Source of the DNA: Micromonospora inyonensis
GTDB taxonomy: Bacteria > Actinomycetota > Actinomycetes > Mycobacteriales > Micromonosporaceae
Length of the DNA stretch: 64,000 nt
Assembly: GCF_900091415.1 (NCBI RefSeq)
Contig: NZ_FMHU01000001.1
Span: forward strand, 2,852,001 to 2,916,000
Direction: 5' to 3'
In this document: positions 21,893 through 49,701 of the stretch, one piece after another
How the letters are laid out: each line of letters begins with the position of its first letter
Numbering within the stretch: the first letter of the stretch is position 1
The notes under the pieces: generated by a model
What the model was told of the DNA's origin: nothing
Database searches by the model: none
The model's input: the letters and a program-made list of their open reading frames with translations, nothing else
Made by a program: the position numbers and the translations under genes

Positions 21893-21965
21893 GGGGCCGT
21901 GGCGCAGCTGGTAGCGCACCACACTGGCAGTGTGGGGGTCAGGGGTTCGAGTCCCCTCGGCTCCA
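21893..21965 (+). tRNA. tRNA-Ala (anticodon GGC)
   Basis: A complete cloverleaf: acceptor GGGGCCG / CGGCTCC (one G-U), D stem GCGC/GCGC, anticodon stem CCACA/TGTGG with loop CTGGCAG (anticodon GGC), variable loop GGGTC, T arm AGGGG TTCGAGT CCCCT, discriminator A. CCA is not encoded. The DNA downstream looks accessory, so this tRNA may have been an integration site. Confidence 0.96.
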
Positions 21966-22401
21966 CCCTTGTGAAACGCCCTGGCGCGGGACCTGATCCC
22001 GAACCAGGGCGTTCGTCGCGTCCGGGGCAGTCGCTGCTCCGCCGGATCCCTGCGCCGTCGACCGTGGTGTCCCGTGCCGACCCGGGTCCGATCGGCATTC
22101 GGCGTCATGAATTGCACGAACCGGGCCAGATGTTTGCCGGGGATCGGTCTTCCCGCATTCCACCCATTGGCGCAACTGTGTCGACAGGGTTTGTCGAATG
22201 TCGGATGTTCGACCGTTCTCGTACCGGTGACTTTCCCCGCCACCGGCTGGATACTGGCCGTGCCGCCGTCCGCGCGAAGGGGGCGGTCCGTGCCGGGAAC
22301 GCGGACCGGACACCTCGCGCGGACGCGGAGGGCGGGACCGACGTTGCCCGGTCTTCGCGGGACTGGGGAGGTGGACCGAAATCGCACCCAAAGAGCCGGT
22401 C
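21966..22401. other. Non-coding region after tRNA-Ala
   Basis: A 436-nt stretch without a convincing gene. It begins with a long hairpin (21975-22013). At 22179-22212 it holds the palindrome TGTCGACA followed by TGTCGA, TGTCGG and TGTTCGA, a cluster that may be an operator. No copy of the tRNA 3' end was seen downstream. Confidence 0.45.
21975..22013 (+). terminator. Hairpin terminator after tRNA-Ala
   Basis: AACGCCCTGG (21975-21984) pairs with CCAGGGCGTT (22004-22013). An inner stem CGGGA/TCCCG extends the structure. Confidence 0.7.
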
Positions 22402-23109
22402 GTGAAGAGTGTCAAGACGGTGCTCGGTTTCCTGACCGTCGCGTTGCTGGTCATGGAGGGCATCGCCCTCGTCCTGGTCACCTCCGTCGTCGACGCCGAC
22501 CGGGCACTGATCTGGGTCCTGGTGGTGCTCATCCTCATCGTCTTCATCCTGTTCGGCCTGGCGATCGCGCGGCCAGGGCTGATCAATCCCGCGTACCAGG
22601 CGCCGGCCAAGGTCCACCCGGTGCCGGTAGCCAGTCCGCCGAGACTCAGATACGACATCTTCGTCTCGTCCCCGATGACGGCGTTCGGGGCCGACGGTGG
22701 CTACGAGGAACACCGGAAGGAGGTTCTCAAGATCGTTGCGGTCATCGAGCGTCGGTGCCAACTGAGGTGTTACTACTCGGGCCGGACCAGGGAGACCCTC
22801 CAGGACCTGGAGGCGGTCGACGTCGGACTGCGCAACGACATGGAGGCGCTGCGGAGCAGCCGCACCTTCGTGCTGATCCTGCCCGAGGCCTTCGTCTCGA
22901 GCGTCTTCGTGGAAGCGGGGATGGCGCTGGCCTTCGGGAAACCCGCCGTCTACTTCCGGCGTCCGGACGTCAGGCTGCCGTTCATGCTCGAGGGCGCGGC
23001 GAACGCGGCCGGCTCCGACCTGCCGCCCACCCGGCAGTATCCGTACCAGAGCACCCCGGATCTGATCAGGCTCATCCAGAACAACGGCCGAAGGATCTTC
23101 GACCCCTGA
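22402..23109 (+). CDS. Two-TM membrane protein with TIR / nucleoside deoxyribosyltransferase-like domain
   Basis: A 235-residue protein. Two TM helices (about residues 6-28 and 36-56) form a hairpin anchor, followed by a cytosolic domain from about residue 83. The domain starts RYDIFVSSPMTAFGADGG, has the middle DVGLRNDMEALRSSRTFVLILPEAF and ends SSVFVEAGMALAFGKPAVYF. This resembles the TIR and nucleoside 2-deoxyribosyltransferase fold; the Glu in VEAG...GKP matches the position of the catalytic Glu in those families. A base-releasing or NAD-cleaving activity is possible but inferred. The GTG start at 22402 has no strong ribosome site. The next gene, 41 nt on, is a CinA-type amidase. Confidence 0.6.
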   Translation: MKSVKTVLGFLTVALLVMEGIALVLVTSVVDADRALIWVLVVLILIVFILFGLAIARPGLINPAYQAPAKVHPVPVASPPRLRYDIFVSSPMTAFGADGGYEEHRKEVLKIVAVIERRCQLRCYYSGRTRETLQDLEAVDVGLRNDMEALRSSRTFVLILPEAFVSSVFVEAGMALAFGKPAVYFRRPDVRLPFMLEGAANAAGSDLPPTRQYPYQSTPDLIRLIQNNGRRIFDP

Positions 23110-23150
23110 GCCCACGCCTTCGATGGGCGGGACTGACGATAGGCAGGACA

Positions 23151-23642
23151 TTGCTCCCAGAAGAGATCGTTGCGAACCTGTTCAAACGGCACGGCCTGAC
23201 CCTGGCGACCGCCGAGTCGCTCACCGGCGGCATGGTCGGCGAGCGTGTCACGTCGGTGCCCGGAGCGTCGGCGTACTACCTCGGCGGGGTGATCACATAC
23301 GCGACGGAGGCGAAGCGCGACGTTCTCGGGGTGAGCGCCGACGTCCTGCGGACCGACGGCCCGGTAAGCAGCCGGGCGGCCAGCGAGATGGCACTCCGGG
23401 CCAGTGAGAGATTCGGGTCGAGCGTCGGGGTGGCGACCACCGGCGTGGCGGGGCCCGCCATGCAGGACGGTCACCCGGTCGGGACGCTCTTCGTCGGGAT
23501 CTGCTGCCACGGGCAGGTCCGCTGCCTGCCGTTCCGGGGGCCCGACGGAAGTCGGGAGGAGATCCGCCGGTGGGCCAGCGAGATGGCGCTGAACGCCGTC
23601 ATCGACGCGGTGCGCGACGCCCGACCGGTGGGCGACCGTTGA
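23151..23642 (+). CDS. pncC: Stand-alone CinA C-terminal domain protein (NMN amidase type)
   Basis: A 163-residue protein equal to the C-terminal domain of CinA, the nicotinamide mononucleotide deamidase (PncC) that turns NMN into nicotinic acid mononucleotide. Motifs: TLATAESLTGGMVGERVTSVPGAS, GGVITYATEAKRDVLGV with the conserved Lys, and TTGVAGPAMQDGHPVGTLFVGI. The N-terminal nucleotide-binding half of full CinA is absent, which is normal for PncC. TTG at 23151 is the best start (AGGCAGGA directly before it). It probably shares a transcript with the TIR/NDT-like gene upstream, which would link the pair to NAD metabolism. The symbol is tentative. Confidence 0.82.
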   Translation: MLPEEIVANLFKRHGLTLATAESLTGGMVGERVTSVPGASAYYLGGVITYATEAKRDVLGVSADVLRTDGPVSSRAASEMALRASERFGSSVGVATTGVAGPAMQDGHPVGTLFVGICCHGQVRCLPFRGPDGSREEIRRWASEMALNAVIDAVRDARPVGDR

Positions 23643-23672: not shown

Positions 23673-24452
23673 TCAGCCCCAGCGGCGGAGGGCATCCGCC
23701 ACGACGGCGTCGACGGAGTCGGCCGCCTCCCGGGCGTCGGCCACGGTGAACGCGACCGGCTCACCCCGCCGCCAGCGGAGCGCGCGGTCCGCCAATGGTC
23801 CGTACGCGGGAAGGACCTCGGCCAGGTAGGCGGCGGCACCGGCCTTCGAGACGATGTCGCCGTGGGCCAGCGTGAAGTGCAGGCGTGCCGGCCCGAGCGC
23901 ACACCAGGCCACGCCCTCGGCACCCACCTGCGTATCTTCCGGCGCGTCGGCGACCGCCGCACGGAGACTCGCGGCCAGCGGCCACCAGTAGGTCTCCAGG
24001 TTGTCCAGGTTGAAGCGGCGTACGGCGGCGCGGTCGACGGTCAGCCCCAGGGTGGACACCTCCGGGCCCCGGACCGCCTTCCCGTACCTGTTGAGCAGCA
24101 GCCACAGCACGGGGTGGAGTTCCCCGCAGGGCTGGTCGGCCCGGAACCGTCCCTCGACGACGAACGGCGCGACCCGCCGGTCGGCGGGCTGCTGGAAGAA
24201 GGTCTCCCGATCGAGGTACACGCCGTCGAGGTGCGGTTTCGGCGGCATGCCGGCGTGCACCGCGGCCAGGGCGCTGCGGTCCTCGTCGGTCGGGCGGCGC
24301 GACGTGACGATCAGCGTGTCGATGTCACTGTGGCCGGGCTGGTACGCCCCGAGCGCGACCGAACCGGTCAGGTACAGCATCTCGACGAAGCCGGGCAGGG
24401 CCGTGTCCACCGCGGCCAGGTAACGGGCGACCACCGTCTCCACCGTCTCCAC
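23673..24452 (-). CDS. Nucleotidyltransferase, aminoglycoside adenylyltransferase-like (DUF4111)
   Basis: A 259-residue protein with the polymerase-beta-type motif LTGSVALGAYQPGHSDIDTLIVTSR near residues 27-51, where the two Asp of SDID bind metal. A C-terminal helical part (KAGAAAYLAEVLPAYGPLADRAL) is like ANT(3'')/DUF4111 proteins. Such enzymes adenylylate aminoglycosides, but many chromosomal members have no known resistance role. The start may be ATG 24452. It converges with the CinA-type gene and lies in the accessory stretch after the tRNA. Confidence 0.75.
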   Translation of the reverse strand: METVETVVARYLAAVDTALPGFVEMLYLTGSVALGAYQPGHSDIDTLIVTSRRPTDEDRSALAAVHAGMPPKPHLDGVYLDRETFFQQPADRRVAPFVVEGRFRADQPCGELHPVLWLLLNRYGKAVRGPEVSTLGLTVDRAAVRRFNLDNLETYWWPLAASLRAAVADAPEDTQVGAEGVAWCALGPARLHFTLAHGDIVSKAGAAAYLAEVLPAYGPLADRALRWRRGEPVAFTVADAREAADSVDAVVADALRRWG

Positions 24453-48732: not shown

Positions 48733-49701
48733 ATGCGCTACGTGCCGGTCGACACGCCCAAGCCCATTTCCAAGATTGGTCTCGGTACCTGGCAGTTCGG
48801 CTCCCGGGAGTGGGGCTACGGCCCGGAGTACGAGCAGCGGGCCGCGCAGATCGTCCGGCGGGCGCTCGACCTCGGGGTCACCCTCTTCGACACCGCCGAG
48901 CTCTACGGATTCGGCCGCAGCGAACGGATCCTCGGCGCGGCGCTCGGCAACGACCGGTCGACGGCCGTGGTGGCCACCAAGGTGTTCCCGGCGTTCCCGA
49001 TCGCTCCGGTCGTGCAGCAGCGGGCGGTCGCCTCGGCCGCCCGGCTCGGCGTCCACCACATCGACCTCTACCAGGTGCACCAGGCGAACCCGGTGGTCGG
49101 CGACCACACCACCATGCGCGGCATGCGCGCGTTGCAGGACGTCGGCCTGGTCGGCGAGGTGGGCGTGAGCAACTACAGCCTCCGCCGGTGGCAGTTCGCC
49201 GAGATCGCCCTCGGCCGGCGGGTGCTGAGCAACCAGGTCCGCTACAGCCTCGTCGACCGGGGCCCGGAGGACGACCTGCTGCCGTACGCCGAACGGACCG
49301 GCCGGATCGTGATGGCGTACAGCCCGCTCGCCCAGGGCTTCCTCTCCGGGCGGTACGACGCGGCGAACCCGCCGACCGGGGCGGTCCGCAGGGCGAACCC
49401 GTACTTCCTGCCGGAGAACCTGGAACGCGGGGCCGCGCTCGTCGACACGCTGCGCGAGGTGGCCGACGCGCACGACGCCACGCCCAGCCAGATCGCCCTC
49501 GCCTACCTGCTGCACCACCCGAACGTGGTGGCCATCCCCGGCGCGTCCAGCGTCGAGCAGATGGAACGCAACGCCGCCGCGGCCGAGATCGACCTCACCG
49601 ACGGCGAGTACGACGCCCTGCTCACCGCCGCCCGCAACTTCCAGCCGATCACCGGCCTGGCCGCGCTGCCCCGCCTCCTGAGGGCCCGTACCATCCGCTG
49701 A
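48733..49701 (+). CDS. Aldo/keto reductase
   Basis: A 322-residue NADPH-dependent TIM-barrel oxidoreductase. Conserved parts: LGTWQFG, TLFDTAELYGFGRSERILG with the catalytic Asp and Tyr, VVATKVF with the Lys, the DLYQVHQAN strand with His, and the cofactor segment IPGASSVEQMERNAAA. The substrate is unknown. Immediately after the stop lies a copy of the dispersed palindromic element. Confidence 0.92.
   Translation: MRYVPVDTPKPISKIGLGTWQFGSREWGYGPEYEQRAAQIVRRALDLGVTLFDTAELYGFGRSERILGAALGNDRSTAVVATKVFPAFPIAPVVQQRAVASAARLGVHHIDLYQVHQANPVVGDHTTMRGMRALQDVGLVGEVGVSNYSLRRWQFAEIALGRRVLSNQVRYSLVDRGPEDDLLPYAERTGRIVMAYSPLAQGFLSGRYDAANPPTGAVRRANPYFLPENLERGAALVDTLREVADAHDATPSQIALAYLLHHPNVVAIPGASSVEQMERNAAAAEIDLTDGEYDALLTAARNFQPITGLAALPRLLRARTIR

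Follow-up and report, generated by a model that had tools for sequence, protein, structure and literature searches.

In a 64,000-nucleotide (nt) stretch of the Micromonospora inyonensis genome (the window; assembly GCF_900091415.1, contig NZ_FMHU01000001.1, positions 2,852,001 to 2,916,000), we identified two adjacent genes, the first (gene 1) coding for a protein with two transmembrane (TM) helices and a domain of nucleotide N-glycosidase type, and the second (gene 2) for a CinA protein predicted to deamidate nicotinamide mononucleotide (NMN). We tentatively favor the reading that they form a horizontally acquired two-gene operon, in which a nucleotide-cleaving membrane enzyme would work with an NMN deamidase, plausibly in phage defense. 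Support for this reading comes from the predicted fold, the conserved residues, the intact CinA site, the presence of a second CinA copy, the rarity of the genes, their variable location, and their adjacency in two genera. The features of the locus are listed below, with positions counted from the first letter of the window.

21893..21967, + strand: tRNA-Ala (ggc), called by ARAGORN and Rfam, at the head of a locus with species-variable downstream genes
22402..23109, + strand: gene 1, GTG start, 235 residues, two TM helices and a predicted DrHyd/nucleoside deoxyribosyltransferase (NDT)-type nucleotide N-glycosidase domain (profiles, predicted structure)
22420..22485, + strand: predicted TM helix 1, residues 7-28 (structure model, hydropathy)
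22495..22569, + strand: predicted TM helix 2, residues 32-56 (structure model, hydropathy)
22648..23106, + strand: predicted N-glycosidase-fold domain, residues 83-235
22837..22839, + strand: Asp146 codon, aligned with the Asp of MilB and BcmB
22912..22914, + strand: Glu171 codon, invariant catalytic-type glutamate, at the position of the MilB and BcmB Glu in the alignment
23151..23642, + strand: gene 2, TTG start, 163 residues, accessory CinA C-terminal domain, predicted NMN deamidase of PncC type (PF02464, TIGR00199, tree)
23217..23219, + strand: Ser23 codon of CinA, Ser of the Ser/Lys dyad (2a9s alignment; Ser31 of the Agrobacterium tumefaciens enzyme in excerpts of PMC5384747)
23313..23315, + strand: Lys55 codon of CinA, Lys of the dyad (2a9s alignment; Lys63 in the same excerpts)

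Both open reading frames look like genuine genes, because their third-position guanine-cytosine (GC) content is 0.90 for gene 1 and 0.89 for gene 2 and because both have homologs, at 51-55% identity for gene 1 and up to 72% for gene 2. The overall GC content of gene 1 is 0.657, below the 0.725 of the window. The first-pass annotation, made from the sequence alone, had described a two-TM protein ending 41 nt before a CinA gene and lying downstream of a tRNA-Ala gene; its coordinates, the spacing, and the tRNA, which ends 434 nt before gene 1, were all borne out. As the next gene (23673-24452) is oppositely oriented, the operon consists of two genes in the window.

Two hydrophobic segments of the gene 1 protein, with Kyte-Doolittle peaks of 2.49 and 3.39 in 19-residue windows, match the helices of the structure model, and the catalytic domain probably faces the cytosol. 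Residues 83-235 are predicted to adopt an N-glycosidase Rossmannoid fold of the MilB/DNPH1 type, with the catalytic-type Glu located after strand 4. The opening DIFVSSP and the Glu motif picked out at first pass are indeed there, as DIFVSSPM and as Glu171 within VEAGMALAFGKP, and the structure alignment places Glu171 on the Glu of VEIGWASGMGKP in MilB and of IEIGWASAMGKK in BcmB. In an alignment of 22 of the 23 profile-search matches (P0023 was omitted), this position is Glu in all 22 rows and the Asp146 position is Asp in 16, Asn in 5, and Val in 1, so that the domain points to an active enzyme rather than a sensor.

The family assignment is made at the fold level only, because the PF05014 score of gene 1, 14.5 bits, lies under the curated cut-off of 28.8; the same family is matched at E up to 0.1 in 14 of the 22 homologs. 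Nothing was returned for gene 1 by NCBIfam or by a PDB sequence search, and the TM part has no SLATT match in Pfam, although profiles of short two-TM regions are weak. The domain had been annotated as TIR/NDT-like, and only the NDT/MilB/DNPH1-like half of that description stood. No TIR family (PF01582, PF13676) was found for gene 1 in Pfam at E up to 0.1, a weak TIR_2 match occurs in one of the 22 homologs, and the structural score is 18.0 for MilB versus 12.5 for the best TIR rows. Comparing residues 83-235 with both folds, as had been suggested, thus gave an NDT-type fold with the conserved Glu and did not place TIR closest, and TIR was rejected as the main identity of gene 1 for want of a profile match and of a closest fold. 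We consider it plausible that gene 1 encodes a membrane-tethered nucleotide N-glycosidase, of putative activity, from the DrHyd (NDT/MilB/DNPH1) superfamily. Even if its role is metabolic, it belongs to a small group of membrane-bound N-glycosidase-like proteins that lie below every curated Pfam and NCBIfam cut-off.

Gene 2 matches CinA clearly, with 157.6 bits (E 2.5e-46) for PF02464, where the cut-off is 23.5, and 120.2 bits for TIGR00199, where it is 68.9. Its residues S23, S40, Y50, K55, T97, and R135 align on S31, S48, Y58, K63, T105, and R145 of 2a9s, the A. tumefaciens CinA, if the chain numbering is taken to be shifted by two residues. According to excerpts of PMC5384747, mutants of these six A. 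tumefaciens residues have lowered or lost activity, and the CinA reaction converts NMN to nicotinic acid mononucleotide (NaMN) in the recycling of nicotinamide adenine dinucleotide (NAD). Gene 2 keeps the Ser/Lys dyad and an intact predicted active site and is a putative NMN deamidase of the PncC type.

The window genome encodes another CinA elsewhere, and gene 2 is the divergent copy. In a tree of 59 CinA proteins, it falls inside a 22-row clade (support 99/90); the other copy groups with relatives' CinAs in a separate clade of 37 rows. Within the 22-row clade, a six-row subgroup (100/97) unites the window, Pilimelia, Solwaraspora, and Phytohabitans proteins with two metagenomic ones. At two CinAs of the usual locus (L050, L051), the order pgsA, cinA, helix-turn-helix (HTH) regulator, pspA was read by eye. 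What distinguishes gene 2 is that it is a second, divergent copy; the first-pass annotation identified it correctly as CinA, but the stand-alone, single-domain form that it had emphasized is ordinary in the group, where the usual-locus CinAs of related genomes are also short (178 and 161 residues, for example). A member of the accessory clade in another genome, G243 (L047:9026-12057), lies by eye downstream of LemA- and HtpX-like genes.

The adjacency of the two genes was read in two genera, that of the window and Phytohabitans. In Phytohabitans houttuyneae (G360), the glycosidase and CinA genes overlap by 4 nt (ATGA). Solwaraspora sp. WMMB762 carries both genes (P0003 and P0028) on one contig of 7,322,552 bases, a case of co-presence in which adjacency was not seen. 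Identities among the three species run parallel, at 50-55% for the glycosidase and 58-65% for CinA. Two genomes have both genes, which are carried by 3 and 4 of 354, giving a hypergeometric probability of 2.9e-4 that overstates the association because the window genome was picked for having the pair. In Phytohabitans, CinA is followed by a third gene (L045:7230-8570, minus strand), whose 446-residue product matches PF01048 PNP_UDP_1 (4.9e-10) and partially the PADLOC PN-superfamily Effector (4.1e-13), and this operon may be a three-enzyme nucleotide module. No match to the phosphorylase-like gene was found in the window genome, in a search that had no positive control.

The pair is rare. Gene 1 was matched in 1 of 101 genomes and in 1 of 394 genomes of a class-level sample, each time the window genome itself, and in 4 of the 354 genomes of the family: full length in the window genome and G360, as the domain only in G309, where, by eye, the N-terminus of the frame likewise includes hydrophobic stretches, and as a short homolog in G197. 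A search of 341 genomes from another actinobacterial family found none and, lacking a positive control, shows little. In an order-level sample, the CinA was matched only in the window genome (1 of 348), G360, G242, and G243 evidently lying outside that sample. When the gene 1 sequence alone was run against some 5.8 billion proteins, the window protein and two others were listed; with a three-row profile 23 matches were listed, scoring being confined to the 8000 candidates that shared the most words. Searches of genome contigs gave no relative with one query and two distant ones with another. One homolog (P0004) is from Streptomyces and further ones are metagenomic; no match was found in plasmids, phages, or viral contigs. 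Two glycosidase-domain homologs (P0020, P0021) have HTH-like N-terminal stretches by eye, which suggests regulatory versions.

Some distant relatives of gene 1 have other associations. In G309, of the same genus (L046:7848-10936), the glycosidase homolog is followed by a 784-residue protein that has TPR-S and Metallophos (phosphoesterase) domains and is matched by PADLOC Effector/TIR; the two genes may form a conflict system of a different kind. In Nitrosomonas sp. Nm132, a TIR_2 domain is fused to the glycosidase domain, and the same fusion was read by eye in Propionivibrio (loci L054:9569-10537 and L055:1-894); the genes downstream in L055 include another TIR-like protein, also by eye.

The pair lies in a variable locus behind the tRNA-Ala gene. 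The algH gene was present in all 24 same-genus genomes searched, and the 18 congeners fetched all have other genes after algH and the tRNA-Ala, never the window pair, some of them sharing genes with one another there. The distance downstream from algH to the gene at 48733 is about 27 kb in the window, compared with about 6 kb to its homolog in two congeners (L057, L062).

From these features we infer an enzymatic activity together with a substrate, trigger, topology, defense role, and CinA role, which can be put as follows. Infection or envelope stress would be the probable trigger that activates the glycosidase; the enzyme would then strip bases from a pool of NAD+ or of some other nucleotide; base removal would halt growth or phage replication; and the dedicated CinA would convert NMN into NaMN, altering the remaining pyridine-nucleotide cycle. 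The invariant Glu and the membrane anchor, along with the TIR_2 fusions and effector-like neighbors of relatives, fit a nucleotide-depleting or signaling role. CinA could serve in recycling, as a brake, or in blocking phage salvage. If the two proteins do work together, a housekeeping NAD-recycling enzyme would be tied to bacterial immunity, and the idea that hosts guard the NMN step, which phages could exploit for restoring NAD+, would become testable.

Several results weigh against this reading. No CinA match lies near the glycosidase homologs of G309 and G197, nor was a CinA seen by eye in the open reading frame lists around those of Nitrosomonas and Propionivibrio. Conversely, G242 and G243 have accessory-clade CinAs unaccompanied by the glycosidase, and for the closest known CinA (Pilimelia P0025, 72%, on a contig of 9,142 bases) no Pilimelia glycosidase is among the matches listed. 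With two adjacencies read and four distant relatives showing no CinA, the pairing was observed within the close subfamily but not across the wider family. PADLOC gave no match at E up to 1 for either protein, Thoeris ThsA/ThsB included, and no integrase, defense gene, or known mobile element was seen beside the pair, most genes at 22-49 kb not having been profiled. The closest solved enzymes use cytidine monophosphate or similar nucleotides, and gene 1 may therefore have a substrate other than NAD+. The first-pass proposal of an NAD-depletion and salvage module, possibly in phage defense, is kept as a plausible hypothesis.

The pair might instead be metabolic, combining a membrane-held enzyme of nucleotide salvage or cleaning, comparable to DNPH1 and MilB, which act on nucleoside monophosphates, with an extra NMN deamidase. 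The nearest folds belong to nucleotide hydrolases that work in metabolism and in antibiotic biosynthesis, the known CinA reaction belongs to NAD recycling (excerpts of PMC5384747), and a PNP_UDP_1 phosphorylase comes next in Phytohabitans; however, the very patchy distribution, the variable locus, the membrane anchor, and the effector-like neighbors or fusions among relatives make this somewhat unlikely. Tight adjacency and a 4-nt overlap would suit a toxin with a brake, in which NMN activates the glycosidase or is its harmful product and CinA, as the antidote, lowers NMN. A loose analogy exists in animals, where a bacterial NMN deamidase stops the activation by NMN of the TIR NAD-cleaving enzyme SARM1, but SARM1 reads NMN through its ARM domain (both from excerpts of PMC9788811), for which there is no room in a protein that comprises just the TM helix pair and the fold. 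Moreover, distant glycosidase relatives do without CinA; the glycosidase-first gene order is neutral here, and on balance we find a toxin with a brake unlikely.

The domain could also be an inactive nucleotide sensor gating the two TM helices, with CinA setting the level of the sensed nucleotide. Excerpts of PMC9503650 present inactive members of the clade as sensors of nucleotides and two-TM SLATT proteins as predicted effectors, and Glu19, inside TM helix 1, is kept in 11 of the 15 alignment rows having a letter there. Against this, the catalytic-type Glu is kept in 22 of 22 rows and Asp146 in 16 of 22, and SLATT is not matched in Pfam, so we hold a sensor to be very unlikely. That two unrelated accessory genes lie side by side by accident seems scarcely credible: the lone accessory-clade CinAs of G242 and G243, distant glycosidases without CinA, and the fact that just two adjacencies were readable would allow it, but the adjacency recurs, there with an overlap, in a second genus despite protein identities of about 55% and 60%, a third species has both genes, and the parallel divergence and the (overstated) hypergeometric value point the same way.

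Returning to the defense reading, we hold one specific version of it to be quite improbable, namely that the membrane DrHyd enzyme destroys NAD+ and CinA blocks phage Nampt/NMNAT salvage by turning NMN into NaMN, the Phytohabitans PNP-like gene removing further nucleotides. CinA would in that case serve the host as a countermeasure to NAD+ reconstitution by phages, a route named NARP2. Canonical salvage uses Nampt and Nmnat to turn nicotinamide, by way of NMN, into NAD+, and Nampt homologs occur in phages (excerpts of PMC12774641).

Among known systems, MilB, BcmB, BlsM, DNPH1 (Rcl), and the NDTs (PF05014) share the predicted fold of residues 83-235, the Glu and Asp positions aligning with MilB and BcmB, whereas gene 1 adds two N-terminal TM helices and shows about 15-21% identity and a sub-threshold Pfam score. 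Compared with PncC/CinA (PF02464, TIGR00199), gene 2 is a clear family match retaining the active-site residues but is a second genome copy, in a separate clade, beside a glycosidase. The TIR NAD-cleaving enzymes (SARM1, the SPARTA TIR, Thoeris ThsB) differ from gene 1, which has no TIR profile match and a TIR structural score below those of MilB and DNPH1. The NDT-like effector of Retron-Eco1 reportedly hydrolyzes NAD+; it has no TM helices and works with a reverse transcriptase and a non-coding RNA. No reverse transcriptase was found in the seven neighboring proteins profiled, and Rfam, at its gathering thresholds, called no retron RNA. The PADLOC PN-superfamily Effector, a CBASS effector class, partially resembles the Phytohabitans third gene and not the window pair, and inspection by eye of the gene calls surrounding the Phytohabitans operon showed no CD-NTase. 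Retron-Eco1 offers a precedent for an NDT-like domain serving phage defense (excerpts of PMC12887533). More generally, nucleotide-cleaving enzymes of NDT-like and TIR-like type count among the known or predicted effectors of immunity. Among the literature matches listed, the pairing is not described in titles or abstract openings, and the sole match with CinA and a TIR domain together concerns skin immunity; a DrHyd-type enzyme with a putative NMN-deamidase partner joins known kinds of enzyme in a partnership that we did not find described in those matches.

Classical integration at the tRNA was considered for the window and rejected: the window holds a single copy of the 22-nt tRNA 3′ end, and no integrase-like gene call was seen at 21-52 kb by eye over the first 90 residues, most of these genes not having been profiled. 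In G309, integrase- and excisionase-like genes (L070:828-2228, by eye) follow the same tRNA-Ala, which therefore serves as an integration site in that congener. The variable stretch of the window runs for about 27 kb (21968-48700), and its part at 28-48 kb resembles by eye a polysaccharide or glycosyltransferase cluster. The minus-strand gene that adjoins the pair carries a nucleotidyltransferase domain, with an AadA_C match slightly below threshold (21.3 versus 22.2 bits).
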